Assembly (NCBI GenBank): GCA_017518255.1
Contig: JAFWVK010000040.1
Span: 62,001-126,000 of the forward strand
Reading direction: 5' to 3'
Length of the DNA stretch: 64,000 bases
DNA from: Oscillospiraceae bacterium
GTDB taxonomy: Bacteria; Bacillota; Clostridia; Oscillospirales; Ruminococcaceae
A model generated the notes under the pieces. It searched no databases and was not told where the DNA came from. It saw only the letters and a program-made list of their open reading frames with translations. Below, piece by piece: positions 1-64,000 of the stretch (position 1 is its first letter; each line of letters starts with the position of its first letter). Made by a program: the position numbers and the translations under genes.

Positions 1-156
1 ATTACCGCCGGAAGCAGCACCGCCTCTCAGGAAATCGGCGCTGCAATCGGAAGATATATCAAGCGGGTAGATGCTGCACTGAAAGATTACTTCGCTGCAC
101 TGCCCGATCATCAGCAGGCAAAGCAAGCAGTTCTGGCTTATTTCTCCCCGACATAG
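1..156 (+). CDS. C-terminal end of an unidentified protein (partial)
   Basis: An open frame runs from the first base to a TAG at 154-156, giving the last 51 residues of a protein that begins outside the window. The fragment is helical and mildly charged (it includes GRYIKRVDAALKDYF) and has no motif I recognise. It lies 53 bases upstream of clpB on the same strand with no terminator between, so the two could be cotranscribed. No function can be assigned. Confidence 0.6.
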   Translation: MTAGSSTASQEIGAAIGRYIKRVDAALKDYFAALPDHQQAKQAVLAYFSPT

Positions 157-45657: not shown

Positions 45658-45728
45658 GCAGGCGTAGTTTAATGGTAAAACATCAGCTTCCCAAGCTGAG
45701 GTCGGGGGTTCGATTCCCCTCGCCTGCT
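45658..45728 (+). tRNA. tRNA-Gly (CCC), integration site
   Basis: 71-nt tRNA: acceptor GCAGGCG/CGCCTGC, anticodon stem TCAGC/GCTGA with loop TTCCCAA giving CCC, T arm GGGGGTTCGATTCCCC. Its last 23 bases lie within the att core repeated at 58289-58314, so the gene stays intact after integration. Confidence 0.95.
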
Positions 45729-45731
45729 GAT
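45706..45731. other. attL
   Basis: 26 bp beginning GGGTTCGATTCCCC and ending CGCCTGCTGAT, identical to 58289-58314. Confidence 0.93.
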
Positions 45732-45738
45732 ATGTAGT

Positions 45739-45866: not shown

Positions 45867-45910
45867 AATTTCCAACTGCGATAAAAAAGTAGTCTAAAAA
45901 AGTAAGTTGT

Positions 45911-46945
45911 TCAGGCCGTTGTTTCCGGCTCTTCAAGATCTTCCATCATCTTGCTATAGTATTCTTGAATAACATCTTCGGCATGATCTCTGTCCGACGA
46001 GAACGAATGTTGGTATACATTACGCATCGTTGCGGTCGTAGACCATCCGCCTCTGTCTGCGGCTACTCTGTCCGTAATGCCAAGCCGGTTCATGTCAGAC
46101 GCAGCGATATGTCTGAGGTCGTGGAATCGAACATGGGGGTATCCGGCTTTCGCAAGCAATCTCGTAAACCGCGAATATATTGCCTTGCCGCTTAGTGTGG
46201 TGACGTACTCACCTTCTTGATCCAGTATCATCTTCTTCAATTTGTTTGGTAGGCGAACAATTCGTCTGGACGAATCTGTTTTTGCGATTTCTTTTTCAAC
46301 ATTCTCTTTGCCGACTGTGACTATCACGTTTTCGATATACAGCATGTCTCCGTGTATCGCGGACTTCTTTATGCCTCTGACCTCAGAGAGTCTTAGACAA
46401 AGCCATAACGAAAGCAGCACGGGGAGCTCTATCGGAGTCCCTCTCACAGCCTTTATGACCACATCAGATGTAGGTAAATCACGTTTAAGTTGCTTGACCT
46501 TGCGTGGCAGTCTAATATTGATTATGAAGTCTGGCCGGTACATTGTGACGGTGGCGTTGAGCAAGCCGTATATATTCGCAACAGTCTTTGGGCTAACAAT
46601 CGAAGCCTCTTGGTTTACCCACTTCTGTACGATCTCTCTCGTTAAGTCGTCAAGCCGGATTCGTTCTATACGTTTGATGTGATTGCGTCTTATCTTCTTG
46701 TAGCCGTCAAGAGTGGATGGCGATAGGATATTCGACTTACTATTTATATATCGGTCGACAGCCTCGCCAACTGACATACTCGACGCATTAACACTGTTTT
46801 GCATCAGAAAAGTTGCGGCGCTATATTCCGCTTCGCGCTTAGTATCTGCTGTTATAGATTTATACACTGGACTCCCATATTCATCGTTGCCTACATATAC
46901 TCTGATTCTCCACCGTCCGGATGGCATCTTCTTTGCTGTTGCCAT
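45911..46945 (-). CDS. int: Tyrosine-recombinase integrase
   Basis: 344 residues. N-terminal AP2-like arm-binding domain (GRWRIRVYVGNDEYGSPVYKS), SAM-like core-binding domain (about 60-165), and catalytic domain: Arg in LCLRLSEVRGI (near 185), HDLRHIAAS (near 277), GGWST (near 304), tyrosine nucleophile in NVYQHSF (near 314). Adjacent to attL and oriented towards it, as expected for tRNA-integrating phages. Ribosome site AGGAGG directly before ATG 46945. Confidence 0.95.
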   Translation of the reverse strand: MATAKKMPSGRWRIRVYVGNDEYGSPVYKSITADTKREAEYSAATFLMQNSVNASSMSVGEAVDRYINSKSNILSPSTLDGYKKIRRNHIKRIERIRLDDLTREIVQKWVNQEASIVSPKTVANIYGLLNATVTMYRPDFIINIRLPRKVKQLKRDLPTSDVVIKAVRGTPIELPVLLSLWLCLRLSEVRGIKKSAIHGDMLYIENVIVTVGKENVEKEIAKTDSSRRIVRLPNKLKKMILDQEGEYVTTLSGKAIYSRFTRLLAKAGYPHVRFHDLRHIAASDMNRLGITDRVAADRGGWSTTATMRNVYQHSFSSDRDHAEDVIQEYYSKMMEDLEEPETTA

Positions 46946-46983
46946 ATAACCTCCTGTCTGGCGCAGGTTACAATTGTAGGTTA

Positions 46984-47217
46984 CTACTGTAACGCCACAG
47001 CGCCTAATGATTTTAGGATCTCATCATTTTGTAATCCAAGGACAGATAAATACAGACACAACCTGCCTAATGGGATCCTGTCTGGTTCCTTTGCGTCCCT
47101 CGAAATGGTATTTGCATGGACTCCTGTGAGGCGCGATAGCTCTTTCTTTGTGACCTTGCTCTTATATAGAGCTAATTCTATCTCGCCCCATATTTCTTTG
47201 CTCGGCGACGGCCTCAT
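46984..47217 (-). CDS. Small Cro/CI-type helix-turn-helix protein
   Basis: 77 residues with one helix-turn-helix (VTKKELSRLTGVHANTISRDAKEPDRIPLGRLCLYLSVLG). Probably an element repressor or excisionase-type regulator, 38 bases upstream of the integrase on the same strand. GGGGGTGATAAA precedes the ATG. Confidence 0.8.
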   Translation of the reverse strand: MRPSPSKEIWGEIELALYKSKVTKKELSRLTGVHANTISRDAKEPDRIPLGRLCLYLSVLGLQNDEILKSLGAVALQ

Positions 47218-47257
47218 TTTATCACCCCCTATCTTCCCCTAATTCTGAACATACAAA

Positions 47258-47431
47258 TCACCACCTTACATATAAGTGTTCAATAGGAATTCTATTCTCC
47301 CAACCGTTTGTATTGTTTTCAACACACTTCAATATAGACTCTAAAGCCTTGAGTACTGTATCAGTGTTTCCCCAACCATTCTCCGGCTCAAGATCTTTAT
47401 ACTCGTCAGCGTTGAATCGCATCTCGCGCAT
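47258..47431 (-). pseudogene. 5'-truncated phage gene at the left deletion junction
   Basis: A minus-strand frame of about 57 codons ending at TGA 47260-47258. It reads MRFNADEYKDLEPENGWG..., then ILKCVENNTNGWENRIPIEHLYVRW at the end, the look of a conserved phage protein C-terminus. Upstream of 47431 the frame is closed and no ribosome site is present, so its beginning is lost. Function unknown. Confidence 0.5.
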
Positions 47432-49014: not shown

Positions 49015-49034
49015 TTACAAAAGGAGGATTTAAT

Positions 49035-49535
49035 ATGGCACATGGTGTTGTTCGTACCGACAAAATGTTCGGTACTGATAATCGTACCGGTCTTTGCTCT
49101 GTGAAGTATTTCGTGAGCACGACCCCGACCGCAATTGACAATGGAAATGTTGTTCTTGTCGGCGATCTTATTACTGGCGAGCGCGAGATTTACAGCGCTA
49201 CGACCCCGGCTGCTAATTCTGATCTGAAGGATATCGGTCTGATTGCTACTCCGGAAATGAAGTACTGCCAGTGCGATTATGCACTCGACAAGTTTGAAAA
49301 CGAAGCAGGCGCTCCGGCTCGTGCATACCGCCTGACCCCTGGCTGCATCTTCAGTGTCACCGCTGATGCTCTGTCTAGCGCCTCTACTCCGGCTGTCGGC
49401 AACCTCGTTGAGCTTGCTGCGGGCACAAAGCTGAAGGTTGTTTCTTCTGCTACATCTGGTTCGACTCAGGTTGGCAAGATCATCGACATCAATACCGTTG
49501 GCGGACTCACATTCTACGTAATTCAGGTCGGCTAA
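49035..49535 (+). CDS. Capsid decoration/accessory protein
   Basis: 166 residues, beta-rich (VVLVGDLITGEREIYSATTP, GNLVELAAGTKLKVVSS, VGKIIDINTVGGLTFYVIQVG), lacking cysteines except near YCQCDY. Placed between scaffold and major capsid protein, the usual position of head-decoration proteins. Ribosome site AAAGGAGG. The assignment rests on position and fold impression. Confidence 0.6.
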   Translation: MAHGVVRTDKMFGTDNRTGLCSVKYFVSTTPTAIDNGNVVLVGDLITGEREIYSATTPAANSDLKDIGLIATPEMKYCQCDYALDKFENEAGAPARAYRLTPGCIFSVTADALSSASTPAVGNLVELAAGTKLKVVSSATSGSTQVGKIIDINTVGGLTFYVIQVG

Positions 49536-49565
49536 TTTGATTAAAAGTGAAAGGTGGTATAAATA

Positions 49566-50588
49566 ATGGATGATATCAAGAACATTGTCAAGATTGGCAT
49601 CGACGCCTATAAGGGCAAACTCGAAATGTACTCTAACGATAAGGCACAGGATACACTCCGTAAGGCACTTATCGAGGCAAACGGCGGCTCGACTAAGCTC
49701 GATCCCCGCGCAATGCGTGACGGCAAGTGTGCTGGCGTGTTCAGTATCGTCGAGCAGATTCTTGCAGGTACTGTCGTCGACGCACTGACAAGCAATGACT
49801 TCTTCAACGCTCTGGTTGACTATCGTAACGTCGCAGACGGCGACCAGGCTATCTTCAGAGTTCAGGATGCAAATCTGTTTGAGGTTGCTGAGGTCGCAGA
49901 GGGTACTCAGGCAATTCGTCGTCAGCGTCTTGTTGGCGAGCAGGATGTCGCTATTACTCCTACTATGCACATGGTTCGCATCTACGAGGAACTGAACCGT
50001 GTTCTGGCTGGTCGCGTTGACTTCAATCATATGATCGACCTCGTCGCTCGTTCCTTCACTCAGAAGACTCTGAATGACGCATATGATCTGTGGGATAATG
50101 CTACTCAGGCTGACCTCGGCGGCGCAAACTACTTCCCGGCTGCTGGTAATGCATTCAGCGAGGCAACCCTCCTGACTGTTATCGAGCACGTCGAGGCTGC
50201 TGCTGGCGGCGCAACTGCTACCGTTATCGGTACTAAGATGGCTCTCCGCTCCCTCATCCCGAGCATCGTCGGCGCAGACCAGAAGAATGTTGTTGACGCT
50301 CAGGGTTATCTCGGTAAGTTCTACGGTTCCCCTGTCGTTGCTATCCCGCAGCGTCATAAGGTCGGCACTACGAGCTTCGTCTATGACGACAAGACTATCA
50401 CCGTCATCGCCGGTGCTGGTGCAGACTCTAAGCCGATCAAGTTCGTCTACGAGGGCGACCCGATCGTCATCGCACGCGAGCCGAAGGAGAACATGGATCT
50501 CACATACGAGTACCTGTATGGCGAGAGATACGGCCTTGGCCTCGTGACCGCAGGCAACGCAGGTATCGGCAAGTACAAGTTCATCTAA
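49566..50588 (+). CDS. Major capsid protein (HK97-type)
   Basis: 340 residues. Organisation of an HK97-fold capsid subunit without its own delta domain: an N-terminal helical arm (1-50), then DALTSNDFFNALVDYRNVADGDQAIFRV, a long spine helix region (VDFNHMIDLVARSFTQKTLNDAYDLWDNA), and a C-terminal A-domain (VIGTKMALRSLIPSIVGA..., YGSPVVAIPQRHKV). It is the longest gene of the head module and is intact. A strong hairpin follows (50600-50629). Confidence 0.85.
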   Translation: MDDIKNIVKIGIDAYKGKLEMYSNDKAQDTLRKALIEANGGSTKLDPRAMRDGKCAGVFSIVEQILAGTVVDALTSNDFFNALVDYRNVADGDQAIFRVQDANLFEVAEVAEGTQAIRRQRLVGEQDVAITPTMHMVRIYEELNRVLAGRVDFNHMIDLVARSFTQKTLNDAYDLWDNATQADLGGANYFPAAGNAFSEATLLTVIEHVEAAAGGATATVIGTKMALRSLIPSIVGADQKNVVDAQGYLGKFYGSPVVAIPQRHKVGTTSFVYDDKTITVIAGAGADSKPIKFVYEGDPIVIAREPKENMDLTYEYLYGERYGLGLVTAGNAGIGKYKFI

Positions 50589-50599
50589 TCCATAATACT

Positions 50600-50629
50600 A
50601 CGAGTCGGCGTGATTCTACGCCGACTCGT
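50600..50629 (+). terminator. Hairpin after the major capsid gene
   Basis: Perfect 12-bp stem ACGAGTCGGCGT/ACGCCGACTCGT with a 6-base loop, no long T run. Such hairpins often limit readthrough so that capsid mRNA is in excess of downstream connector genes. Confidence 0.65.
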
Positions 50630-50650
50630 TCTGAATGAAAGGAAGATTTT

Positions 50651-51226
50651 ATGGCAACTACACGCAGAGCAAACACTAAGAGTGCAGCTAAAAAGGAACC
50701 TGAAGCAAGCAAAGCAGTCGAAGAAGCAGCCGTGCAGGAGGATACTAAGATTGAATCTGGTGTGCAGCAGTTCGACCGTGTCGACCCGCATACTATCGTT
50801 CTTGTCCGTAGTGGATTCCACGGTCTGCTCGTATACACATCTCCGCATACCGGAGCGGTGTTTACGTGGGGTCAATTCGGCGACACGCTGGAAATGGAGA
50901 TCGGAGAGCTGAGACACGCAAAGAACTCTTCCGCAAAGGCTTTCTTCGAAAATAACTGGTTTATGTTCGATGAAGAATATCGTTGGGTAATTGATTACCT
51001 TGGCGTGCGACAGTTCTACAAGTACAGCATGACGATTGATGACATCGGTTCTCTGGCTACGATGACTCCGGATGAAATCGAATCTGCGCTTTCTAATGTT
51101 CCTGAAGGCCAGAAAGAGGCGATTATTGCGCACGTAAGAGAAATGGTACGTTGCAAGGCTATCGACTCCCTCAAGGTGATTGCAGCGTTAGAGAGGACGC
51201 TAGGCATCCAACTGATCGGACTGTGA
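50651..51226 (+). CDS. Phage structural protein downstream of capsid, unknown role
   Basis: 191 residues. Lys/Ala-rich N-terminal tail (1-40), then a conserved-looking core (FHGLLVYTSPHTGAVFTWGQFGDTLEMEIGELRHAKNSS, FFENNWFMFDEEYRWVIDYLGV) and a helical C-terminus ending in ALERTLGIQLIGL. I recall similar proteins directly after capsid genes of clostridial phages, with no defined function. Likely a head-completion or assembly protein. Ribosome site GAAAGGAAG. Confidence 0.6.
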   Translation: MATTRRANTKSAAKKEPEASKAVEEAAVQEDTKIESGVQQFDRVDPHTIVLVRSGFHGLLVYTSPHTGAVFTWGQFGDTLEMEIGELRHAKNSSAKAFFENNWFMFDEEYRWVIDYLGVRQFYKYSMTIDDIGSLATMTPDEIESALSNVPEGQKEAIIAHVREMVRCKAIDSLKVIAALERTLGIQLIGL

Positions 51227-51231
51227 TGTGA

Positions 51232-51684
51232 ATGATAATTTCATACGATATCTTTACCGGAGCTTTTCTGTCGAAGATAACTGAGTATGACATTCTCTCT
51301 ATCGAAGAAGAGGCAAGAACGGTAATTATTGATGGTTATATGAAGCGGGCTATTAGCCAGTTTCAGCATATCTGTCACTGTGATCTAATCAAGTCAGCAG
51401 ATGATGAAAATCGAGAGTTCGATATCGAACTAACCGAGGACGATGATTTGACAGAGATTGTCGATATAGTCTCCGAAGGAATGGTTGTAAACTGGATGAA
51501 GCCGTATGTTTATAAGCAAGAGATTCTTGAAATGACTTTGAACACAAAGGATTTCACGACATACTCTCCTGCTGAAATGATCCATAGACTTGGCGAAGCA
51601 TATGAAAAGGCACAGTCGGATTTCACTCAAATGATGCGGGAGTACTCATTTAATCACGGTGATCTGACAACTTTGCATCTATGA
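51232..51684 (+). CDS. Putative head-tail connector protein 1
   Basis: 150 residues, mostly helical and acidic (FDIELTEDDDLTEIVDIVSEGMVVNWMKPYVYKQEILEM), size and position of head-tail adaptor proteins. The block GMVVNWMKPYVYKQE resembles connectors in other clostridial phages. Overlaps the next gene by ATGA. Confidence 0.5.
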   Translation: MIISYDIFTGAFLSKITEYDILSIEEEARTVIIDGYMKRAISQFQHICHCDLIKSADDENREFDIELTEDDDLTEIVDIVSEGMVVNWMKPYVYKQEILEMTLNTKDFTTYSPAEMIHRLGEAYEKAQSDFTQMMREYSFNHGDLTTLHL

Positions 51685-52007
51685 TCGGTGCATCCGTTTC
51701 AAATCCGGTTTACAGGCAGACACTCCGCAATTATTTTCAATATCTTGTCGATCACTTCTTCAAGATACTCCCTATGAAGGAGCAACAAGATAGCGGCCTG
51801 CCGATATATCTATCAAGTCTAAAGTTTGAGATACTTGGATTCGAAGGATTATTCGTCCAAACAGACTATAACGCATCCGTCATTACATTACTGTCTATTT
51901 TGCAATCGATGATCGACGACGAACAAATTGACGTCTCTGTTGTCCGCAGAGAAGTTTTCCACGCGATCTCGATATGCAATAAACTCAAAGACCTATACAG
52001 CAAATGA
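51681..52007 (+). CDS. Putative head-tail connector protein 2
   Basis: 108 residues, mixed helix and strand, no motif recognised. Translationally coupled to the preceding connector-like gene and 10 bases before the next gene; its assignment comes from the head-tail position. Confidence 0.45.
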   Translation: MIGASVSNPVYRQTLRNYFQYLVDHFFKILPMKEQQDSGLPIYLSSLKFEILGFEGLFVQTDYNASVITLLSILQSMIDDEQIDVSVVRREVFHAISICNKLKDLYSK

Positions 52008-52017
52008 GGTGAACGGA

Positions 52018-52665
52018 ATGGGCGTTTGGGATTACTATACTGCTCGGATCAACGCAAAGGGAACAAATAAGAGAGGGGCAGCCCTTCAACGCGAACAAAG
52101 ATATATTCGTTCTCACCTCAAAGATAATTTGTCGTATCAGCAGTGCATTATTGACGGTGAGGACAGAGAAGTTGCAATCATCAACTCAGACAACCTTGAT
52201 GAAAAGTCTATCATTTCGTTGCCGGGAGAAGATTTACTCCACGGCGCTCTTGTGGAATGGATGGATAACAAGTGGCTGATTGTTGAAAGAGATGCTAACA
52301 CGACTGTTTATGCCAAGTGTAAGATGAAGCAGTGCAACCATTTCTTACAGTGGATAGACAGTAATGGCAAGATTTGCGGTCAATGGGCGATTGTTAGCGA
52401 CGGTACAAAGTATCTGACCGGTGAATTTGAGGATAGAAACTTCATCACAAGCCGAGGAGATACGAGACTATCCGTGACGATTTCTCGTACAGAAGACGCG
52501 CTCAATCTCGACCGAACAAATCGTTTCCTTATCGACGACCCTGACTGTCACGAGCATCTAGCATACGTATTGACGAAACCTCTACGTATGGGGTCTGTAT
52601 ATAACGGCAATTCCTATCGTCGGAATCCGTGGCAGCAACGATTATTTTACGACCTTACTGATTAG
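52018..52665 (+). CDS. Phage connector-region protein, probably C-terminally truncated
   Basis: 215 residues from ATG 52018 (GAGGTGAACGG upstream). Contains EDREVAIINSDNLDEKSIISLPGEDLLHGALVEWMDNKWLIVE and FLQWIDSNGKICGQWAIVSDGTKYLTGEF. I recall longer proteins of this type in related phages. The frame ends at TAG 52663 just before a 160-base stretch without genes where the tail genes should start, so a deletion probably removed its end. Confidence 0.5.
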   Translation: MGVWDYYTARINAKGTNKRGAALQREQRYIRSHLKDNLSYQQCIIDGEDREVAIINSDNLDEKSIISLPGEDLLHGALVEWMDNKWLIVERDANTTVYAKCKMKQCNHFLQWIDSNGKICGQWAIVSDGTKYLTGEFEDRNFITSRGDTRLSVTISRTEDALNLDRTNRFLIDDPDCHEHLAYVLTKPLRMGSVYNGNSYRRNPWQQRLFYDLTD

Positions 52666-52829
52666 ATCAACACTACAATATATCGAAACGGGAGAACAAA
52701 TAATTGCTGGTAAGAGGTACGGATGTATGGATCTGTTCGCAATTCTGGATGAGTGAAATGCGATAAGTGTATATATAGTGGATATCATGCCTGTAATATA
52801 CATGCTTTAATATCCTGGAGGTGAGAATT
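52666..52829. other. Gap at the right deletion junction
   Basis: About 160 bases without a supported gene between the connector and lysis genes. All tail genes expected here are missing. No terminator or promoter is evident; the ribosome site of the next gene (CTGGAGGTG) is at the right edge. Confidence 0.5.
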
Positions 52830-53159
52830 ATGAAGAATATTGTTGTTACGATCATTCTGTCCTTAATGGCTCAGACAGGTGTTATCGGGATTCTGATAAG
52901 ACGCATTTCCTCGAAGCAAAAGGGAGAAAAAGAAAAGAATGCTGCTCTATGCAAGGGCGTTCAGGCAATCCTGAGACACTACCTGTATGAGCAGCATTCA
53001 CTGTATTGTGAGAACAAAAAGTATGCTCCGGCGCATGTTAAAGAAGATTTCGATAATATGTATAAGCAGTACCATGCGTTAGGGCAGAATGGCGTTATGG
53101 ATGGGATCTATAACGAGTTCATGCGACTGCCAACACAAGAGGGCGATGGAAATGAATGA
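52830..53159 (+). CDS. Small phage membrane protein of the lysis region
   Basis: 109 residues from ATG 52830 (GGAGGTGAGAATT upstream). One N-terminal transmembrane helix (about 3-22) and a soluble, charged C-terminal part (KQKGEKEKNAALCKGVQAILRHYLYEQH). This type precedes the holin in many clostridial phages; possibly a second lysis-membrane component. Overlaps the next start by 8 bases. Confidence 0.6.
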   Translation: MKNIVVTIILSLMAQTGVIGILIRRISSKQKGEKEKNAALCKGVQAILRHYLYEQHSLYCENKKYAPAHVKEDFDNMYKQYHALGQNGVMDGIYNEFMRLPTQEGDGNE

Positions 53160-53352
53160 AATCAGAAAAAGAATTGCAAAACTGATTGATGTAAAGTCGA
53201 TCATCACGATCTCACTTACACTCGTATTCTGTGCGCTTGCCGCAATCGGCTCTATCTCAGAAGAAAAATTTATGACCGTATACACTGTTGTAATTTCGTT
53301 CTTCTTCGGAGTTAAAAGCGGCAGGGATAACGGGAACGATCAGGCAAAATAA
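53152..53352 (+). CDS. Probable holin
   Basis: 66 residues from ATG 53152 (an ATG six bases earlier is in frame). Two hydrophobic segments (about 16-38 and 43-58, IITISLTLVFCALAAIG and YTVVISFFFGVKSG) with a charged C-terminus, directly before the endolysin: the layout of a phi-LC3-type holin that opens the membrane for lysin release. Confidence 0.65.
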   Translation: MNEIRKRIAKLIDVKSIITISLTLVFCALAAIGSISEEKFMTVYTVVISFFFGVKSGRDNGNDQAK

Positions 53353-53371
53353 GAACGGAAGGAGGAAACGT

Positions 53372-54640
53372 ATGGTAAAGACATACGCATACGACGATCA
53401 AACTCAGATCACAGCTCATTTTAACGCCAAAGAGTTTCGTTGTAAATGCGGAAAACCGCATGACTTTAATGTGTCCGACGAGCTTGTTGAAAAACTAGAA
53501 AATATCAGAGACGTATTAAACTGCCGTAATATTCATATCTCCAGCGGCTACCGTTGCTCCGATCATGATAAGGAAGTCGGAGGTAGTGGCAGCGGAAAGC
53601 ATACTCAAGGCTTGGCAGCGGACGTCTGCTGCTATGACCAAGATGGAAAGCCGATCTCCAGCAAAATCGTTTCCTGTAAAGCTCAGGATATCGGGTTTGG
53701 CGGGATTGCAAACATCAATACATCGTACACATACACGCACTTAGATGTACGCACCGGTAAAAAATGGTATGGCGACGAAACAAAAGGTACGAGCTGGGGA
53801 TGCAACGATTTGTATGAATACTACGGCATTCCGAGAGATGATGGAAAGGATGATGAGCCCGTGGGAACCACTAAGCAGGGTGTCGACATTTCGTACTGCC
53901 AGAACAAGGTTGACTGGGCGAAAGTTTCTGGAATCGATTTCGCAATCTTGAGAGCCGGTTTCGGCAAATATACAAAGCAAAAGGATGCAATGTTTGAGTC
54001 TCATTATGCAGGGGCGAAGAAGATCGGATTGCCGATTGGAGCTTACTGGTATAGCTATGCCACGAACGCTGATGAGGCGAGAATGGAAGCCGATGCTTGT
54101 ATCGAAATTTTGAAAGGCAAGCAATTTGAGTATCCTATTTACTACGATGTCGAAGAGGAGAAGCAGCTTTCGACCGGAAAGCAGAACGTCTCCGAAATCA
54201 TCAAGGCATTTCTGGAGCGTGTTGAAGCCGCAGGGTACTGGGTCGGATTATATATGAGTGCAAGCCCGATGAGTAGTCTTGTAACAGACGACATCCTCAA
54301 GAGATATGCGATTTGGGTCGCTCATGTAGGTGTGAAGAAGCCGTCCTATTCCGGAAGCTACGGCGCGTGGCAGTATTCTTGGAAGGGCAAGGTTAGTGGA
54401 ATCACGGGCGATGTCGACATGGACTACTGCTACGTAGACTATCCGACGCAGATTAAGGCTAAGGGTCTGAACGGGTTCAGCAAGAATAATACCGCAGATG
54501 ATCCGAAGGATTCTGATACATCTACAAACCCTCCGGCGTCAAGTGAAACACCTTCCGATCCGCCACAGAACGATAATACAATCTCTGTTGAGGTCACACT
54601 GAATGGAGAGAAGTATACCGGAACGCTGACGAAGAAATAA
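53372..54640 (+). CDS. Bifunctional endolysin: M15 peptidase plus GH25 lysozyme
   Basis: 422 residues. N-terminal peptidase M15 domain (about 12-140) with FNAKEFRCKCG, SGYRCSDHDKEVGGSGSGKHTQGLAADV (zinc His/Asp), and the second His in YTYTHLDV. Then a GH25 muramidase domain (about 165-360): GVDISYCQNKVDWAKV (catalytic Asp), FAILRAGFG, YYDVEEEKQL (catalytic Glu). A Pro/Ser/Asp-rich linker (370-400) ends in a short beta segment. Two wall-cutting activities in one lysin. Ribosome site GGAAGGAGG. Confidence 0.92.
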   Translation: MVKTYAYDDQTQITAHFNAKEFRCKCGKPHDFNVSDELVEKLENIRDVLNCRNIHISSGYRCSDHDKEVGGSGSGKHTQGLAADVCCYDQDGKPISSKIVSCKAQDIGFGGIANINTSYTYTHLDVRTGKKWYGDETKGTSWGCNDLYEYYGIPRDDGKDDEPVGTTKQGVDISYCQNKVDWAKVSGIDFAILRAGFGKYTKQKDAMFESHYAGAKKIGLPIGAYWYSYATNADEARMEADACIEILKGKQFEYPIYYDVEEEKQLSTGKQNVSEIIKAFLERVEAAGYWVGLYMSASPMSSLVTDDILKRYAIWVAHVGVKKPSYSGSYGAWQYSWKGKVSGITGDVDMDYCYVDYPTQIKAKGLNGFSKNNTADDPKDSDTSTNPPASSETPSDPPQNDNTISVEVTLNGEKYTGTLTKK

Positions 54641-54652
54641 AGAGGTGAGAAC

Positions 54653-54877
54653 ATGGTACAAATCACACAAAAGCCCACAATGATTAAGTATGTTGATGAC
54701 AAGCTCGTTGCAATTCTCGACCTACAGGTGAGCACCGTAAGTGAACTGCCGAGCCTTGGAGATGTTATCGACGGTTATGCTGTCGGCATCGGCAGTCATG
54801 CGGAGATTATTCAGGCAGACAGCCCGACAATTGTCACCATTGATGAAGACGATACGTGGTACCCAGAGCAGAGCTGA
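54653..54877 (+). CDS. Small phage protein, unknown
   Basis: 74 residues, acidic, beta-strand pattern (MVQITQKPTMIKYVDDKLVAILDLQVSTVSELP). No motif recognised. AGAGGTGAGA precedes the ATG. Between endolysin and the receptor-type protein, so perhaps a tail-tip or fibre accessory. Confidence 0.55.
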   Translation: MVQITQKPTMIKYVDDKLVAILDLQVSTVSELPSLGDVIDGYAVGIGSHAEIIQADSPTIVTIDEDDTWYPEQS

Positions 54878-54894
54878 GAAGGAGGAAATGAAAT

Positions 54895-55125
54895 ATGAAG
54901 CATTTTGTTACAACTATTCAGAATGACACGACTTGTTCGTGTTTTGCGTATGATGATCGCACGAGTGCTATGGCAAAGTTCCATCATGAGATGGAATATG
55001 CCTGCAGTGCAGGCATTACAACACTTTGTATCGTAGCGAACAGCAGCGGCAGCATCGTCGCCTCGGAGAAGTATACCGCTCCTCAGCCGGAACAACCAGA
55101 AGAAGAGGTCAGTGAGGAGCAGTGA
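54895..55125 (+). CDS. Small phage protein upstream of the DGR-like target
   Basis: 76 residues with a folded part (1-60) and an acidic Pro/Glu-rich tail (QPEQPEEEVSEEQ). AGAAGGAGG ribosome site. The stop overlaps the GTG of the next gene by four bases, so the two are translated together; it may be an assembly partner of that protein. Confidence 0.55.
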   Translation: MKHFVTTIQNDTTCSCFAYDDRTSAMAKFHHEMEYACSAGITTLCIVANSSGSIVASEKYTAPQPEQPEEEVSEEQ

Positions 55126-56129
55126 GCGCGACTTTCTACGATCTGCTGAAGTACGCCAAGACAGGCATCACGTCTCAGAACATGACGGGCTTCGAAAAGA
55201 GAAAGGCGCTCGCGTATTTTGGGAACAACTCAGGAAAACCAGCAATGAATGACTATGAAGCAATCGCTGAAATCGTTCGATCTGGTAATGCACAGCAGGT
55301 TTTCAATATTGGCGATCAAATACTCTGCACATATACTGACACCGGCGGCCACCTGTATGATTGTCCATTTGATATTGTTGACTTCCGCAATGTAACACTT
55401 GCTGACAGCTCGGTTGTTCCCGGAATGATTATACAGATGCACTATGCTACAAAAGAGGAAATACAGTTTGATGCAAAAGAGCCTGATCGACCTGCATCCG
55501 CTGATTACAACGGGCAAATCGCAAAGTACGGCTGGAATCGCTACAGCATGAGTGCAATGCGTCAGTGGATTAACAGCGAGGAGACAGCAGGCAACTGGTG
55601 GACAGCGCAGCATGAGTATGACGCCGCGCCGTCACAGGCAGGCACCTTCAACGGATTTATGCACGGACTGCCGTCTGAATTTTTGGCGATGCTGAAACCG
55701 GTCAAGGTGGAAACCGTGCGGAATTATTGTGATCCTGATACAGCGCAAGAATCCGGCACATATGAGTACGACACGACATACGATACGTTTTGGCTGCCGT
55801 CCAGAGAGGAAGAGTACATCAAAGTAAATGAGCCGAATCATCGCGAGGGCAGAGCATGGCAATACTGGATCGACCGGCTGACGCCGGAAGCAACAGAAAA
55901 AGGCGAATCTTTGCCGCAGCAGACGTATTCGACCGCGGATAATACTCACGCACTTGCGTCTCACATACACTATCGTTTGGATGCGCACTCCAGCGGCGAT
56001 ATCACTCGGTTGCGTTCGGCGTTTCGTAGCAACTCTTACATCGAGTGTTACGTCAATTCTACGGGTTACGTCAACTACAACACCGCGTACAGCAGTTATC
56101 GTTGCGCCCCGGCTTGCGCAATCTGTTAA
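55122..56129 (+). CDS. DUF6273-like protein resembling a DGR target (C-type-lectin-like end)
   Basis: 335 residues from GTG 55122 (GAGGAG upstream). Helical start, then a DUF6273-like region (ILCTYTDTGGHLYDCPFDIVDFRNV..., WNRYSMSAMRQWINSEE, DTTYDTFWLPSREEEY). The last 45 residues (RLRSAFRSNSYIECYVNSTG..., then YRCAPACAIC) have the Ser/Tyr/Asn-rich variable segment followed by a conserved RCAPAC end that I associate with phage proteins diversified by retroelements. No reverse transcriptase or template repeat is in the window. Probably a tail-tip or receptor-binding protein. Confidence 0.6.
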   Translation: MSATFYDLLKYAKTGITSQNMTGFEKRKALAYFGNNSGKPAMNDYEAIAEIVRSGNAQQVFNIGDQILCTYTDTGGHLYDCPFDIVDFRNVTLADSSVVPGMIIQMHYATKEEIQFDAKEPDRPASADYNGQIAKYGWNRYSMSAMRQWINSEETAGNWWTAQHEYDAAPSQAGTFNGFMHGLPSEFLAMLKPVKVETVRNYCDPDTAQESGTYEYDTTYDTFWLPSREEEYIKVNEPNHREGRAWQYWIDRLTPEATEKGESLPQQTYSTADNTHALASHIHYRLDAHSSGDITRLRSAFRSNSYIECYVNSTGYVNYNTAYSSYRCAPACAIC

Positions 56130-56202
56130 TGATTCTTTCTTGATACCAACTTCATCATAACACGGGAGTCTTTTCTCTCCATAGCTAAAGCTTTAGACCA
56201 CC

Positions 56203-56226
56203 GGCTGGGCCGGTAGTTTTCTTGCC
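56203..56226 (+). terminator. Small hairpin after the DGR-like gene
   Basis: ACCGGC-TGG-GCCGGT followed by AGTTTTCTT; possible terminator of the structural operon. Confidence 0.5.
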
Positions 56227-56232
56227 AACAAT

Positions 56233-56266
56233 AGCCCGCGATGACTATTCGCGGGCTTTATTTTAC
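56233..56266 (+). terminator. Terminator of the phage late operon
   Basis: Stem AGCCCGCGA/TCGCGGGCT (56233-56241 with 56249-56257) followed by TTATTTTACT. Confidence 0.8.
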
Positions 56267-56268
56267 TA

Positions 56269-56297
56269 TTGACATTAGGCATAGTTTGTGGTATAAT
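56269..56297 (+). promoter_or_regulatory. Promoter of the cargo operon
   Basis: TTGACA (56269-56274), 17-bp spacer, TATAAT (56292-56297), host-like and strong, overlapping the end of the late-operon terminator. The leader to the first gene is about 160 bases and includes the hairpin CCCATTC-GTT-GAATGGG. Confidence 0.9.
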
Positions 56298-56464
56298 AAT
56301 TATGGAGCAGTATTACCACTCAAATAATTGTCGTTTCTCAGTACACGATTAACAAAGGCTGAGTTCAAAGTTTTATCCCCATTCGTTGAATGGGCTTTCA
56401 ATTAGTATTAAAAAGATCACAGTGAATGAATAACATTTTGAAAATGAAAGCAAAGAGGTTTGTT

Positions 56465-56902
56465 ATGACAAAAGAGCTGTACCTTAAATTTCCGCGCACA
56501 CTTAGAGAAGCTCTCGTAAACGGAATTGTATCATTTCATGGCGTGTGTGTCGAGGTTGCTTTTAGTCCAATCCCGGTGTTATTCAGGGTAGTGCAACGCG
56601 ATGGCGGAGATCTTACACCAATCAATGAGAGTGACTTTATGTCATACGCAGAACTCGGCAAACAAATAAAAGGTGTGTCTGGAGACAGTATTGATCGTTA
56701 CAGTTGTTCAATGTATCTGAATAAAGACGAATTATCCAGAGCGCTTCATCTACCTCGAAAGAAAAAGTATATTATAGTCGGTGATGTTAATAATACTAAC
56801 GGAGTTATTCACAGAAGCCAAAATAGCAGTCATGTCGATGTTTGGTTGTACGATGGATCTAACATCCAGCATCAGTTTAGATTTGAAGGTGATAGCAAAT
56901 GA
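56465..56902 (+). CDS. Cargo operon gene A, unknown
   Basis: 145 residues from ATG 56465, chosen for its AAAGAGGT site; an in-frame ATG at 56426 lacks one. Mixed alpha/beta protein starting TKELYLKFPRTLREALVNG and ending with SSHVDVWLYDGSNIQHQFRFEGD. No membrane helix, no signal peptide and no motif I know. Overlaps gene B by ATGA, and B overlaps C the same way, so the three are made together, possibly as a complex. Expressed from a constitutive-type promoter at the attR end of the element, a common place for defence or lysogenic-conversion cargo. Confidence 0.7.
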   Translation: MTKELYLKFPRTLREALVNGIVSFHGVCVEVAFSPIPVLFRVVQRDGGDLTPINESDFMSYAELGKQIKGVSGDSIDRYSCSMYLNKDELSRALHLPRKKKYIIVGDVNNTNGVIHRSQNSSHVDVWLYDGSNIQHQFRFEGDSK

Positions 56903-57507
56903 ATAGTGTGGTATGGTATATTATCGATGGAAAGCATCTGTATATCGAACAAATCTTAGCAGAGATTGACTATCCGATTTTGTATGTATGTATTGATGAC
57001 AACAATCAGCGCTACCTTACTATGTGTGTTGATCCAATGGATGGGTATTATCTTGTCGCAGAGACTGATATAGAAACAATCATTCTGATGTTGGAAGATA
57101 AAATTACAATGAAAGACGCGTTTAGGCGAACACATCCTATCTGGGAAGTTTATTCTGTTGACGAAGATCCGCATCATGATGAAGTAAGTCAAATTAAGTT
57201 TGCAGATCTTTCTGACGATAATTTGCCAGACAGTGGTGCTTTCTTTCACTTAAAAGAGAACGAAGACGAACTAATACATTATCTTGAAAAATTAAAGCGC
57301 ACGCGAGTTCAAGCAAATGACATTCTAGTAAAGATCAAAGAACAAGAAGGCGTATGGACGAATCTCTCGCCTAAATCAGCGCAACAAAAGCACCGCCTCA
57401 TCCCATGTTTGTTTTCATTTATTGATATGGCAGTGCCTAATATTCTCCCTCCACTGCGTCAAAGGGACTGCCGAGAAATCACAAAAGAGTGGGTGGTTAA
57501 TGTATGA
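56899..57507 (+). CDS. Cargo operon gene B, DUF6575-like
   Basis: 202 residues. The first 75 (LYVCIDDNNQRYLTMCVDP, YYLVAETDIETIILMLEDKITMKDAFRR) remind me of DUF6575 proteins, which have no assigned function. The second half is helical (ENEDELIHYLEKLKRTRVQANDILVKIKEQ) and ends with VPNILPPLRQRDCREITKEWVVNV. No catalytic motif recognised. Middle gene of the ATGA-coupled trio. Confidence 0.65.
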   Translation: MNSVVWYIIDGKHLYIEQILAEIDYPILYVCIDDNNQRYLTMCVDPMDGYYLVAETDIETIILMLEDKITMKDAFRRTHPIWEVYSVDEDPHHDEVSQIKFADLSDDNLPDSGAFFHLKENEDELIHYLEKLKRTRVQANDILVKIKEQEGVWTNLSPKSAQQKHRLIPCLFSFIDMAVPNILPPLRQRDCREITKEWVVNV

Positions 57508-57881
57508 TGAAAAATTTTAAGTTTAATAATTATCAGATACCACAAATAGTGCTTTCATTAGATTCCATCAATGGCGATCATGCTAAGGTCAGACTAAATA
57601 TTCGGTCTGACATTAGTGTCGCTGACAGCAGAGATATGATCGGAATTGCATTTCAAATCAAAATCATAAACACTGACTCAGACGATGTCGTATTTCAAAC
57701 AATGACAGTTTCGACATACTCATTCGATGGAGATTATAATGCATCCACGGCAGAAGAGGAAATACCTGTGGAGATAATAAAGGAGTCTTACGAAAGAGCC
57801 AGAAATCACACCCTAGAAATTACGAAAGCCGCAAATATTGGCACTCCAAAAATTCCTTCTTTTGAAGATTTCTATAGCTAA
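57504..57881 (+). CDS. Cargo operon gene C, possible SecB-like chaperone
   Basis: 125 residues. An N-terminal strand pair (FKFNNYQIPQIVLSLDS), three long strands (AKVRLNIRSDIS, IGIAFQIKIINT, VVFQTMTVSTYSFDG), then a helix and a Pro-rich end (IPVEIIKESYERARNHTLEITKAANIGTPKIPSFEDF). This order, ending in a helix followed by P-x-IP-x-F, is how SecB-like proteins look. SecB relatives act as general chaperones or as the chaperone arm of toxin-antitoxin-chaperone systems. The identification is by pattern only. Confidence 0.5.
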   Translation: MMKNFKFNNYQIPQIVLSLDSINGDHAKVRLNIRSDISVADSRDMIGIAFQIKIINTDSDDVVFQTMTVSTYSFDGDYNASTAEEEIPVEIIKESYERARNHTLEITKAANIGTPKIPSFEDFYS

Positions 57882-57913
57882 TCGATTTTTCACACATACC
57901 AGCGGATTGTGCG

Positions 57914-58075
57914 TTGTCAGTCAGAAAACTAAGTGAAGTTGTATTTCTTGAATGCGAAGAAAAAGAAAAACTGTTAAAGTTCTATCAGAACGATAATAAC
58001 CGCTTTAAGAGATATGGAGAGCATCTGTCAAAAGCGGAGGATAAAAAACACCTTCAACTGCTTATATTCATTTGA
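57914..58075 (+). pseudogene. Gene remnant after the cargo operon
   Basis: An open frame with plausible protein character (VRKLSEVVFLECEEKEKLLKFYQ..., then RYGEHLSKAEDKKHLQ) starts at TTG 57914 at best and ends at TGA 58073-58075. It has no ribosome site. Probably the leftover of a deleted cargo gene; it cannot be assigned. Confidence 0.3.
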
Positions 58076-58288
58076 CATTAGATAAGGCAGAAAACAAAAG
58101 TCAGAAGACTGAGTGCAGGAGTAGCACTATATGACATCTAATAATCGTTACAACTTTGGTTACTACTCCGCTTCACAGAAATTATATACAATCGCACATG
58201 CCTGTGTTTGTACAAAACTCATATGACTCAAAATATGACTCATATTTTCAAACACACGTATCTACGTTTGTTTAAGTGGTTTGCGGGT
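58076..58288. other. Right end of the element without genes
   Basis: About 210 bases between the last remnant and attR. Holds the right arm-type sites and otherwise no supported feature. Confidence 0.6.
58221..58242. promoter_or_regulatory. Right integrase arm-type sites
   Basis: Two copies of ATATGACTCA separated by AA, identical over 22 bases to 45845-45866 and in the same orientation, 46 bp from attR. Confidence 0.65.
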
Positions 58289-58314
58289 GGGTTCGATTCC
58301 CCTCGCCTGCTGAT
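58289..58314. other. attR
   Basis: 26 bp identical to 45706-45731. It copies the T arm and acceptor 3' strand of tRNA-Gly; the flanking sequence upstream (TTTGCGGGT) does not continue the tRNA. Confidence 0.93.
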
Positions 58315-58670: not shown

Positions 58671-58997
58671 ATGGCTGGTATTATTGTTCAAGACGACAAC
58701 ACATTTTCTACAACATTCATCACAGAGATACTGCGGCGTGAAGGATACACGGTCCGTACCGCAAGCCGGATCACAAAAGAACTCTCAGCCGAATCTCCGG
58801 ATCTGATTATTATGTACGATGACGGAGAAATCCTGCCGGACATCAGGCAGCTCGCAATTATGAAGCGCAGATTTACCTTCAAAGAATCCGAACTCCGCCG
58901 CGCAGGTGTCTGCTGCATCCTGAATACGGATGTGACCGAAATTGTCTGCATTATCCGAGATTATCTTCTTATACTGCCGAATCCGCCCGCGGAATAA
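58671..58997 (+). CDS. Small receiver-like protein, degenerate
   Basis: 108 residues with the strand/helix rhythm of a response-regulator receiver domain and nothing else: GIIVQDDNTFSTTFITEILRREGYTVRTA, DLIIMYDDGE, GVCCILNTDVTEIVCIIRDYL. The acidic pair in the first strand and an Asp in MYDD are present, but the usual phosphoacceptor context and the conserved Thr and Lys are not evident, so it may not be phosphorylated. No DNA-binding domain. GGCGGCGCAGGAA precedes the ATG. Confidence 0.6.
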   Translation: MAGIIVQDDNTFSTTFITEILRREGYTVRTASRITKELSAESPDLIIMYDDGEILPDIRQLAIMKRRFTFKESELRRAGVCCILNTDVTEIVCIIRDYLLILPNPPAE

Positions 58998-59136
58998 CCG
59001 CAGGCGTTTTTTGCATTCCGCTGAACAGCCTTCAACGAACCGCTTCCGTGTATTTTTTGAAAAGCACTTGATATTCCTGTTCAAAAGCGCTATAATAACC
59101 TTAGAAATCTCTTTTCGGAATTCCGGGGGTGATACC

Positions 59137-60690
59137 GTGAAAAAAAGATATTCGGCACTGCTGTCCGCTGCCGTCCTGACAGGCTGCCTGCTTTCCCCGG
59201 TCTGTCCTGCTGCATCAGCTGCCGGAGCAACGATTCTTGTCACAAACAGTACTGAGCTTCAAAACGCACTGAAATCTGTCAGAGCCGGCGATGAAATCAT
59301 TCTGCGCGAGGGGATATATCAGCCTGACCCGTCAAGCGGAACATGGAAAGCTTTTCAGGCAACCGCAGACGGAACAGCGGACAACCGCATTATCATACGC
59401 AGCGAGGACCCGGAGCATCCTGCTTCCATATGCGGAAACTCAACACAAAGCAAATGCGCGCTTTATATTACCGGATCTTACTGGGAGATACGGAATCTGA
59501 AAATCAGCACAGCCTGCAAGGGCATTTTTCTGGCAAAATCGGAACACAGCATCATTTCAGACTGCGAAGTATTTAATATCGGTGACGAAGCAATTCATAT
59601 TATTGATAACAGCAGCTATAATCTTGTTGAGAACTGTTCCGTTCATGACACGGGATTATTAAACCCGAAATACGGTGAGGGCGTTTACATCGGAAGCGCA
59701 AAAAATGCGACGGATTACGGATTTGACTGCCATTACAATACCGTTCGCAGCTGCAAATTCGGTCCGAACATTACTGCCGATCATGTTGATATTAAAGAAT
59801 ACACGCTCGGAAACCTTGTTGAATACTGTACCTTTGACGGAACCGGTATGCTCGGTGAAAACGGCGGTGACAGTTTTGTTGAAATCAAAGGAAATAATGC
59901 AATTGTACGGTATAATACCGGATACCGGAATCACTGTGAGAAGCAGCTTTACGGCTTTGATATGAACGTTCAGATTGAAGGCTGGGGTCAGAACAATAAA
60001 ATCTATGACAACACACTCTTTCTTGATTCAGAAGAATGCTATATAGCAAAGGGCTGGAAGTGCTACACAGAAGTTTTCAGAAATCATTCGGAACCGGTCG
60101 GATGCACCTATAACGGCAACCGTGTTTTGCAGGTTGAGCATTACCGGATGAGCGGTGATGTCAACGAAGACGGACAGATTGATTCTACCGATTTACGCTT
60201 TTTGCAGGATTCACTCATGGCGCAGTCAGTTCCGCATATCTCCGGAGAAAACGCGGATATGAATCAGGATTCCGTATTAAATGCAGCCGACCTGACGATT
60301 CTGAAACGAAAAATGCTGCTGCATCAGACGGAGGATAAACCGGAAATCCTTGTATCCTTTATCAAAGAGGAAGCCGGTAAATGGCGCATGACAGACGGGC
60401 TGGGCGAAAAAACAGTCACATTCCGCATCAGTGCGGATGCCGGTTCCGTGCTGAATCTCGGATGGGGATACTGGGATCCGTATACCGTAAACGAAACAAC
60501 GGGAAAAGAAGGAAAATGGATACAAAAATCACTCGGTGAATACACTTCGGATCGGGACGGAATCACAGAAATCTCCGTCAGCCTTCCGGCAGATGCGACA
60601 CGCGTCGCTCTTGAGGTTTACAATTATCAGGATCAAAACGGGAAACGTGATATAAACGATGTTGTTTTATCTCAGGTCCGGGCTGACTGA
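59137..60690 (+). CDS. Secreted right-handed beta-helix protein with internal dockerin
   Basis: 517 residues from GTG 59137, the codon that begins a good signal peptide (KKRYSALLSAAVLTGCLLSPVCPAASA). Beta-helix domain about 30-340: ATILVTNSTELQNALKSVRAGDEIILREGIYQ is the typical opening of polysaccharide lyase-like helices, followed by repeating N/S-rich rungs (NLVENCSVHD, NTVRSCKFG, NLVEYCTFDG). A type I dockerin lies inside the chain (about 344-402: DVNEDGQIDSTDLR, DMNQDSVLNAADLT) and is followed by another beta-rich module (about 405-517, VSFIKEEAGKWRMTDGLG...). A polysaccharide lyase or related enzyme on a cellulosome is likely; the family and substrate are unproven. Confidence 0.8.
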   Translation: MKKRYSALLSAAVLTGCLLSPVCPAASAAGATILVTNSTELQNALKSVRAGDEIILREGIYQPDPSSGTWKAFQATADGTADNRIIIRSEDPEHPASICGNSTQSKCALYITGSYWEIRNLKISTACKGIFLAKSEHSIISDCEVFNIGDEAIHIIDNSSYNLVENCSVHDTGLLNPKYGEGVYIGSAKNATDYGFDCHYNTVRSCKFGPNITADHVDIKEYTLGNLVEYCTFDGTGMLGENGGDSFVEIKGNNAIVRYNTGYRNHCEKQLYGFDMNVQIEGWGQNNKIYDNTLFLDSEECYIAKGWKCYTEVFRNHSEPVGCTYNGNRVLQVEHYRMSGDVNEDGQIDSTDLRFLQDSLMAQSVPHISGENADMNQDSVLNAADLTILKRKMLLHQTEDKPEILVSFIKEEAGKWRMTDGLGEKTVTFRISADAGSVLNLGWGYWDPYTVNETTGKEGKWIQKSLGEYTSDRDGITEISVSLPADATRVALEVYNYQDQNGKRDINDVVLSQVRAD

Positions 60691-61377: not shown

Positions 61378-64000
61378 TTATTCCTGTGCAGGGAATTTCG
61401 TAATCTGACCGAGCAGATACTCCTGATGCAGACGGATATCCTCGCCGTCCAGCTCAAGATCGCCGTTCAGATCGGCAGGATCGAAACTGTCAATCTCCCC
61501 TGTCATGACCGCACGCTTCAGCAGTGTGAGATCGCGTGCATCGACGCTCTGATCTCCGTTGAGATCGCCGTAAATAAATTCGTTGACATCTGTACCTTCC
61601 GGGAAAATGAGCTTCCAGGACTGAATATTGAACAGGTAGCCTTCTCCGCCCCGGAAAACCAGATAGAGATCATGCTTGCCGGTTGCTTTATTCAGTTCGG
61701 TCCGGACTGTTTTCCAATCCTGCCAGCCGCCGGTTTCCGGAACACTGCATGTGCCAATCAGCGTACCGTCCGGAGCATCCAGACGTACTTCAACCGAAGC
61801 ACCGCCGTAAGGAGAACCGACCGTCAGATCAATCGCATCCGCACCGCTGAAGAAATCAACATCGCTGAATCCGATGTAATCACCGTCTTCAATATAGCCG
61901 ACATCCTGCGAACCGTCATCGAGATTCTCAACCACAACGCCGGACTGATCGGAGAACAACGCTGCATCCACACCGGATGCGATTCCGCTGAGACGCAGGA
62001 GATGCTTGGATTTGCTGAGAATCTTTCCGCTTCCGTCAAGAACATAGAAATAGTACTCGCCTGCTTCGGAAGGTGTCTTAATCTTGTTTGCCGTTCCGCT
62101 GCATTTGGTCATCGTACTGCCGGCTTTGAAGGATGTGGTATTATCCGGTGCAATCCAGACAACCTTGCCGGTTCCGGCTTTGCGGATCGGGAGAACGGTT
62201 TCGCCCTTGGTTGCACAGCTTGCCGGGAAAATGTAGTTCGCATCGCTGACCATATTCTCCGGCATGATGCTCTTGAACTCATCCTGCAAGCCGGAATGCA
62301 GACAGATTTCATACTGTCTCTGCGGCCAGACTGCATCGGAAACGACAATCGGTGCATCAATATCGCTGTACGGCGGATTTGCGCCCATTTTATTAACAGT
62401 CGCATACGTTCTCTTTATAGTCAGATGATGTTTCTGACCGTAGTCTTCGCAGTTGATTGTATAGGTAACATTCTTGTCGATATCGAGAACATTGTCCATT
62501 TCCTCGATGTATGTCGTACCCTCGTCATTGTGCAGACCGTAGGTCGGTGCGCCCATTCTTCCGGCAGGGATGCCGTCCACATAGTTTTCGTTGATAACGG
62601 TACCGGGCATCTGACCGATCGTATAGATGCCGCCGCTGTCGTGCAGGCGGTTCAGGCAGTTAATCACACGGTTATAGCAGATCATATTATCGCGGCAGGT
62701 AGTGGAATCCTGGAAATTACACCAGCCCCAGCCGAGATGAATTCCGTTATATGCGGTCTTCTCAACCTGATTGCGAAGCACCTTGACGGAATCTGCAAAG
62801 TACACCGTGACGGCAGCACAGCCGCCGAAACCGGGAACCACGCTGATATCATAAAGCAGATTATCGCTGACGGTATCGTTCTTGCAGACGCCCTCCACAC
62901 CGACAGGGAATTTCTCACGCGGAGAATTTGCTGCATCACCGATATAAATGTGCTGAGGATGTCCGATTGTGATACCGGATGATGTGATATCTGTAATATA
63001 GTTGCCGGAAATATTGCTGTTCACAACATCGTTAGTCATCGAAATGCCGTCGGCACCGGTATGCTTGATGACATTTCCGGTGAAGTTGATGGAATCACTG
63101 CTCGTCACATGAATCATTGCGGGCAGCGTATCAACCATCTCATATTTCTTGGTGTGCCAGTTGGAATCTGCAAACGCAGTATAAGTCTGTGCAGCCTGAC
63201 AGGTTGTTTTGCCGTGTGAGCCTGCAACATCGGTCAGATTATAATCAGTATGTGCAAAGGTCAGACCGCTGAAGGTCAGATTTCTGACGCGGTTTGAAGT
63301 CGATTCGCCGGCGATCACGACAAGCTGATCCGCAACCGGCGCTTCTACATCGGCATCAGACATATTCTCCCAGTCGAAAGGATAATAATACAGCTTATGT
63401 TCTGTCTTATCAAAGAAGAACTCGCCGGGAGAATCCACAAAGCTGAATGCATTAAAGACTGTATGCCAGCCGCTGCATGAAAAGCCTGCGCCCCAGCCCG
63501 GCGTCTGTGCAATCGCACCGTATGGCTGCTGGAACAAGACAACCAGAGTACCGTTCTCGTAGCGCACATCACGCGAGCATACAATATTTTCATTCCATGT
63601 TGTGCCGTTGACAATTTCGAGATCATCCGTATTGGAGGTAATCTTCGGTACATCTCCGGCATTGTATTTTACACCGTCGTCTTTTTTGCCGGAATCCCAT
63701 GCCCAGCTTGCCTGTCCGGCAGTAATAGAGTAAGAACCGTAACCGCCCTGCGCACCGACGCCGACACTGCCCATATTGGCACGGTGATCGTTGACGTAAA
63801 GGTTGCGCAGCTTGTAATCACGGTCGAGCGAAGCAACATAGAGCCTGTCGTTATACTTTGACCAGCCGGTCACCTGCTTTGCACCGGAGAAAACCGGTTT
63901 CTCATCTTCATATGCCTGATAGACAATCCGGCAGCCGTCCGGCGCGGAATCGCGCGTATCAAATGTGACTGCCTCTGTCATCCGGTAGGTTCCGCCGCGG
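61378..64000 (-). CDS. Secreted GH141-like beta-helix protein with CBM6-like module and dockerin (5' partial)
   Basis: At least 873 residues; the frame is open to the window edge, reading GGTYRMTEAVTFDTRDSAPDG, so the N-terminus is outside. The large N-terminal part (about 1-600 of the visible chain) is a right-handed beta-helix opening with IVYQAYEDEKPVFSGAKQVTGW and ...LRNLYVNDHRANMG, as I know from GH141 (xylanase/fucosidase) relatives, with NNITGN-style rungs such as GNVIKHTGADGISMTND. Then a linker domain, a CBM6-like module (about 675-795, AIDLTVGSPYGGASVEVRLD, GWQDWKTV) and a C-terminal type I dockerin (DLNGDQSVDARDLT, DLNGDLELDGEDIR). The exact substrate is unknown. Confidence 0.8.
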   Translation of the reverse strand, partial: RGGTYRMTEAVTFDTRDSAPDGCRIVYQAYEDEKPVFSGAKQVTGWSKYNDRLYVASLDRDYKLRNLYVNDHRANMGSVGVGAQGGYGSYSITAGQASWAWDSGKKDDGVKYNAGDVPKITSNTDDLEIVNGTTWNENIVCSRDVRYENGTLVVLFQQPYGAIAQTPGWGAGFSCSGWHTVFNAFSFVDSPGEFFFDKTEHKLYYYPFDWENMSDADVEAPVADQLVVIAGESTSNRVRNLTFSGLTFAHTDYNLTDVAGSHGKTTCQAAQTYTAFADSNWHTKKYEMVDTLPAMIHVTSSDSINFTGNVIKHTGADGISMTNDVVNSNISGNYITDITSSGITIGHPQHIYIGDAANSPREKFPVGVEGVCKNDTVSDNLLYDISVVPGFGGCAAVTVYFADSVKVLRNQVEKTAYNGIHLGWGWCNFQDSTTCRDNMICYNRVINCLNRLHDSGGIYTIGQMPGTVINENYVDGIPAGRMGAPTYGLHNDEGTTYIEEMDNVLDIDKNVTYTINCEDYGQKHHLTIKRTYATVNKMGANPPYSDIDAPIVVSDAVWPQRQYEICLHSGLQDEFKSIMPENMVSDANYIFPASCATKGETVLPIRKAGTGKVVWIAPDNTTSFKAGSTMTKCSGTANKIKTPSEAGEYYFYVLDGSGKILSKSKHLLRLSGIASGVDAALFSDQSGVVVENLDDGSQDVGYIEDGDYIGFSDVDFFSGADAIDLTVGSPYGGASVEVRLDAPDGTLIGTCSVPETGGWQDWKTVRTELNKATGKHDLYLVFRGGEGYLFNIQSWKLIFPEGTDVNEFIYGDLNGDQSVDARDLTLLKRAVMTGEIDSFDPADLNGDLELDGEDIRLHQEYLLGQITKFPAQE

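Follow-up and report, generated by a model that had tools for sequence, protein, structure and literature searches.

A PD-T4-10-like gene pair with a probable SecB-like partner: a candidate chaperone-gated toxin-antitoxin operon in an integrated element of an Oscillospiraceae bacterium

Analyzing a 64,000-nucleotide stretch of an Oscillospiraceae genome (hereafter the window), we found a three-gene operon, A-B-C, whose first two genes are, by profile comparison, a divergent and shortened version of the PD-T4-10 pair and whose last gene probably encodes a SecB-like protein of the CmdC/PD-T4-9_C type. We read the operon, tentatively and with somewhat less than even confidence, as a chaperone-gated toxin-antitoxin (TA) cargo of the toxin-antitoxin-chaperone (TAC) type that would act against phages, with A as the effector and B as the antitoxin. 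The sequence-only reading had proposed a chaperone-controlled toxin or a phage-exclusion module, and it is the chaperone-linked toxin module that now makes the best reading.

Anatomy and control signals of the operon

The operon (Table 1) is read from a promoter that matches the TTGACA-17-TATAAT consensus at all 12 positions and carries an extended TG. Eleven TTGACA-N17-TATAAT sites with at most one mismatch occur in the window, compared to 0.3 expected, which marks this promoter as one in the host's own style. The leader that follows (56298-56464, about 160 nt) holds a hairpin and then a T-rich stretch, which together are possibly an attenuator, and an Rfam search of this leader gave no match. 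For gene A, 56465 is the best choice of start, with an AGAGG ribosome site ahead of it, while starting from the in-frame ATG at 56426 would yield 158 aa. Both joints, A/B and B/C, are ATGA overlaps within which B and C start. The cargo is AT-rich, with a GC fraction of 0.385 versus 0.464 in the remainder of the element that carries it. Three chained genes of 145, 202, and 125 residues, a strong host-style promoter, and a position between terminator and attR had all been described earlier, and all are seen in the sequence.

Table 1. Features of the operon and of the integrated element in window coordinates
Feature	Position	Strand	Remark
attL, 3' end of tRNA-Gly (45658-45728)	45704..45729	+	1 mismatch to attR
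Tyrosine integrase of the element	45911..46945	-	PF00589 1.3e-11; phrog_1 1.5e-47
Endolysin (peptidase M15 + GH25) of the element	53372..54640	+	
DUF6273 protein, last gene ahead of the cargo operon	55122..56129	+	
Two terminator-like hairpins closing the upstream phage operon	56200-56214 and 56233-56257	+	
Operon promoter, TTGACA-17-TATAAT with extended TG	56269..56297	+	Same style as other perfect window sites
Leader hairpin between promoter and gene A	56378..56394	+	
Gene A, 145 aa	56465..56902	+	
Gene B, 202 aa	56899..57507	+	
Gene C, 125 aa, last in the operon	57504..57881	+	
attR, 26 bp	58287..58312	+	

Family relationships of A, B, and C

Scanned directly, the three proteins have no significant match in Pfam, NCBIfam, or PHROGs and none among PDB sequences. 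No relative turned up in phages or plasmids by tblastn, and pattern scans with the window proteins across collections of viruses and genomes revealed no close one. We inspected the weak genome matches L002 and L004 and put them down to chance, along with further marginal ones including L005, L006, L009, and L010. PADLOC provided two leads, both weak, from B to PD-T4-10_B (0.0013, residues 19-128) and from C to PD-T4-9_C (0.014). Searching the genomes of the class with PD-T4-10_B recovered a locus, L008, that carries a 147-aa match to A (3.9e-5) and, immediately behind it, a 379-aa match to B (6.2e-6). The B profile alone fetched this locus, so its match to A counts as independent evidence. Searching plasmids, first from L008 and next from L067, brought up DUF6575 proteins of Arthrobacter, Rhodococcus, Oscillatoria, Mycobacteroides, Rahnella, and Pantoea, and a DUF6575 profile search returned eight genome loci and one viral contig. 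We found no E. coli counterpart of the Pantoea pair, PF20215 gave no match above its cut-off across 245 genomes of the order, and in a set of 30 genomes of the genus, the A-family profile recovered the window copy only.

With the window sequences left out of the profiles, window A (4.8e-10) and window B (2.1e-11) still rank first, and by wide margins, among the 97 ORFs of the window, and none of 20,000 shuffles of A and B come near these scores. The link to PADLOC PD-T4-10_A (5e-9, for L075) and PD-T4-10_B (1.8e-12) runs through relatives: PD-T4-10_A is matched by the A proteins of L075, L073, and L067, and PD-T4-10_B is matched at L074, L076, L067, L066, and L075. The A-B pair is conserved across Clostridia, Actinomycetes, Cyanobacteria, Acidobacteria, and Enterobacterales, and at 14 of the 16 DUF6575 loci outside the window, the gene directly before B is A-like. 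The two exceptions, L074 (2444-2848) and L085 (3131-3610), encode short lone DUF6575 proteins with no A partner, one of them with a C-terminal transmembrane-like stretch. Two loci have defence genes as neighbors. In a Nostoc locus (L078, 469-5209), the A-DUF6575 pair stands directly after DruE of Druantia (5.7e-219), and in an Acidobacteria locus (L083, 3606-6421), an A gene is followed by DUF6575 fused to a helicase-like protein, this pair adjoining a type IIG restriction-modification enzyme (1.5e-281).

Window B consists of an N-terminal DUF6575 domain (residues 13-138) and a unique 64-aa tail that contains the protein's most hydrophobic segment, at about 166-187. The earlier suggestion that B is DUF6575-like is supported by the non-window profiles, which match it at 36-37 bits, and by its relatives, which pass PF20215 at up to 1e-24, although window B itself falls below Pfam detection. 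These relatives have a common DUF6575 N-terminus and differing C-terminal parts, and their extra domains sit in the C-terminal half that window B has lost; family homology stops at residue 138 and the protein at 202. A profile search detected no remnant of this half in any downstream frame, so C is rejected as the missing part of B. Thus, the operon shares with PD-T4-10 the A and B families, gene order, overlapping ORFs, and the N-terminal DUF6575 region of B. It differs in three respects: its B lacks the C-terminal half of a protein that usually has about 350-430 aa, it adds a third gene that is probably SecB-like, and its A is too divergent for a direct PADLOC match to PD-T4-10_A, being linked via intermediates. 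Because a full-length B of about 350 aa is missing, we do not file the operon under PD-T4-10, despite the homology of A and of the DUF6575 region of B.

Thirteen A proteins share P10, R41, S82, G113, H123, and W127 (window numbering), and window A keeps all six. The homologue L080 A, modelled by AlphaFold2 with six relatives including window A, reached a pLDDT of 89.6 and a pTM of 0.82. Among the 50 structures that match this model best, nearly all are ADP-ribosyltransferase (ART)-fold proteins, led by Tpt1/KptA (Z 6.8, rmsd 3.3, 91 aligned) and including pertussis S1, VPA0770, TreTu, DarT, RES, ParT, and Arr, and the absence of other fold families from this list is not evidence against them. 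Individually these matches are of moderate strength (all Z below 8; Foldseek E at best 0.23), and it is the consistency of the list that argues for the fold. The A family is predicted to adopt an ART fold, with window A included by homology to the modelled relative. The reported alignment ranges (model 26..135 on S1 2..146, and 28..135 on cholera A1 2..129) presumably place the invariant arginine of A on the NAD-binding arginine of S1 and cholera A1, if the start of the alignment is ungapped. The family invariants include an R-S-H pattern but not the usual ART glutamate. NAD+-dependent catalysis is thus not assured, and A could be an enzyme of variant type, a sensor of NAD+, or a catalytically inactive ART. 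The former statement that neither A nor B shows a known toxin motif needs revising, given that A belongs to the PD-T4-10 A family and has a predicted ART fold.

For gene C, an initial profile of five SecB sequences gave no significant match, its score being reached by 97 of 20,000 shuffles. Against a 28-protein SecB-like profile drawn from the same phylum, C scores 14.6 bits, with the next non-family ORF among 1,176 ORFs at 8.0, and none of 20,000 shuffles reach this score (best 13.9). The N-terminal half matches best, and Pfam SecB does not match C. A single-sequence fold prediction (pLDDT 45) gives four long strands and a later helix, in an order that would suit SecB, and Foldseek with this low-confidence model returned no informative match. 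The proposal that C is SecB-like is therefore carried by the sequence statistics and not by the predicted fold.

TAC systems, a candidate mechanism, and its alternatives

SecB-like genes elsewhere in the phylum close several kinds of small operon, including ART-X (L086-L092, L096, L098, L099), MqsRA (L014, L093), and HigBA-like operons (L102, L111, L113, L115). At L015 (473-1821) and L016 (1492-2952), a GNAT-like gene, a small gene, and a SecB-like gene stand in a row, apparently a TAC type with an acetyltransferase-like first gene. The labels ART-X, MqsRA, HigBA-like, and GNAT-X are our presumptive ones, assigned from recognised sequence motifs. In the recognisable TACs of this set, the gene just before SecB occupies the antitoxin position. 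The window operon resembles the MqsRAC, HigBA-like-SecB, and GNAT-X-SecB operons in that a SecB-like gene, in the window a probable one, comes last in a small TA-type operon, but the toxin and antitoxin families of those operons are unrelated to its own.

With CmdTAC/PD-T4-9 the operon has in common a three-gene order that opens with an ART-fold protein (in the window, by homology), continues with a gene that varies, and closes with a SecB-like gene (in the window, a probable one); window C scores weakly on PD-T4-9_C. In contrast, the middle gene is CmdA in CmdTAC and DUF6575 in the window, and no relation between A and CmdT-like ARTs is detectable in sequence: hhalign between the A family and these ARTs gives nothing, and PADLOC PD-T4-9_A does not match window A. 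On sequence grounds we therefore do not accept A as a CmdT homologue, and we do not file the operon under CmdTAC. Conserved co-occurrence of A, B, and C, which had been set as a test of the module, is seen in parts, since A-B recurs at most DUF6575 loci and SecB-like genes cap other TA pairs, whereas a second A-B-C operon was not found in any other genome searched. Nor did we find a SecB-like gene joined to a PD-T4-10-like pair described in the papers searched, of which PMC9519451 alone names DUF6575 or PD-T4-10. The operon is a variant of the TAC/PD-T4-10 kind and so far a single instance.

In our preferred reading, SecB-like C would keep an unstable antitoxin folded in the resting cell, where the antitoxin would silence the effector. 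When a competing phage infects, a newly made phage protein would titrate C, as the T4 capsid titrates the SecB-like chaperone CmdC to activate CmdTAC (PMC11618068). The antitoxin would then be lost, and the effector would arrest growth ahead of phage release, so that the element could use the module to exclude other phages. Toxicity, roles, trigger, and defence are what we infer for A-B-C on this basis. A, of the ART-fold family, would be the effector, and B, with its DUF6575 domain and hydrophobic tail, the chaperone-dependent antitoxin, because B stands in the antitoxin position beside C and has lost its C-terminal half. Antitoxins of TAC systems carry a chaperone-addiction extension, of which the B tail may be a counterpart.

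Experiments on the E. coli homologue point the other way. As a TA system, PD-T4-10 protects through abortive infection, and in E. coli its B is toxic alone, A neutralises B, and loss of B abolishes defence (Vassallo et al. 2022, PMC9519451), the reverse of our preferred roles. The same chaperone-gated module could thus operate with B as the toxin, A as an ART-fold antitoxin that binds or modifies DUF6575, and C stabilising A, an assignment we consider somewhat unlikely. The near-constant presence of A beside DUF6575, whatever the C-terminal domain, is as expected if A acts on DUF6575, and the missing ART glutamate also favors a non-effector A. However, window B has no C-terminal effector domain (its match ends at 138 of 202 residues), the lone DUF6575 proteins suggest that this domain alone need not be toxic, and the place of B before the SecB-like gene is where other TACs here have their antitoxin.

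It is less probable still that A and B form a PD-T4-10-like two-gene system to which C is an unrelated small, beta-rich third component or a hitchhiker with no chaperone function. A SecB-like gene is absent from every other DUF6575 locus, and both the mainly N-terminal SecB match and the low-confidence fold would suit this possibility, but C overlaps B by ATGA, occupies the chaperone position of TACs, and is the sole non-family ORF of those scanned to stand out on the SecB profile. The least probable of these readings, and quite an improbable one, is a decaying or inert operon in which B is a functionless, truncated remnant of PD-T4-10_B. B is half the usual length, and pseudogenised copies of the pair occur at L077 and L079; against decay stand three intact frames with tight overlaps, a perfect promoter, the lack of any detectable remnant of the B C-terminus downstream, and the retention by window A of every invariant residue.

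A bolder view would make the PD-T4-10 A family a previously unrecognised branch of the ART fold and the operon a TAC lineage of a new kind, its ART-fold effector held by a DUF6575 antitoxin that depends for stability on a SecB-like phage sensor, thereby linking PD-T4-10 and CmdTAC; we regard this view as doubtful. More generally, the operon suggests that SecB-like phage-sensing chaperones serve as a plug-in for further TA types, here the PD-T4-10 kind. The fold prediction for A also gives a testable handle on PD-T4-10, namely, whether A binds NAD+ and whether it modifies B, RNA, or nothing. Moreover, the near-constant combination of A and DUF6575 with exchangeable C-terminal domains, the helicase fusion among them, suggests a modular sensor-effector design.

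The integrated element carrying the operon

The operon lies at the right end of an integrated element bounded by an att pair, for which 0 is expected by chance at one mismatch. The att core falls within tRNA-Gly, which makes the element 12.6 kb long, small for a tailed phage. Genes in the middle of the element (45730-58312) match PHROGs whose function is unknown (3313, 4088, 5329, 3853, 5523), and no terminase, portal, or major capsid protein was recognised among the element proteins scanned. The element could be either a satellite or a non-tailed phage of small size. The closest relative of its right end is the L025 locus, with 66% identity in the DUF6273 protein. None of A, B, and C is present at that locus, indicating that the operon is accessory cargo. 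To the right of attR (58942-60690, 61378-63981), the window encodes beta-helix type proteins ending in dockerin-like repeats, as in cellulosome-forming ruminococci.
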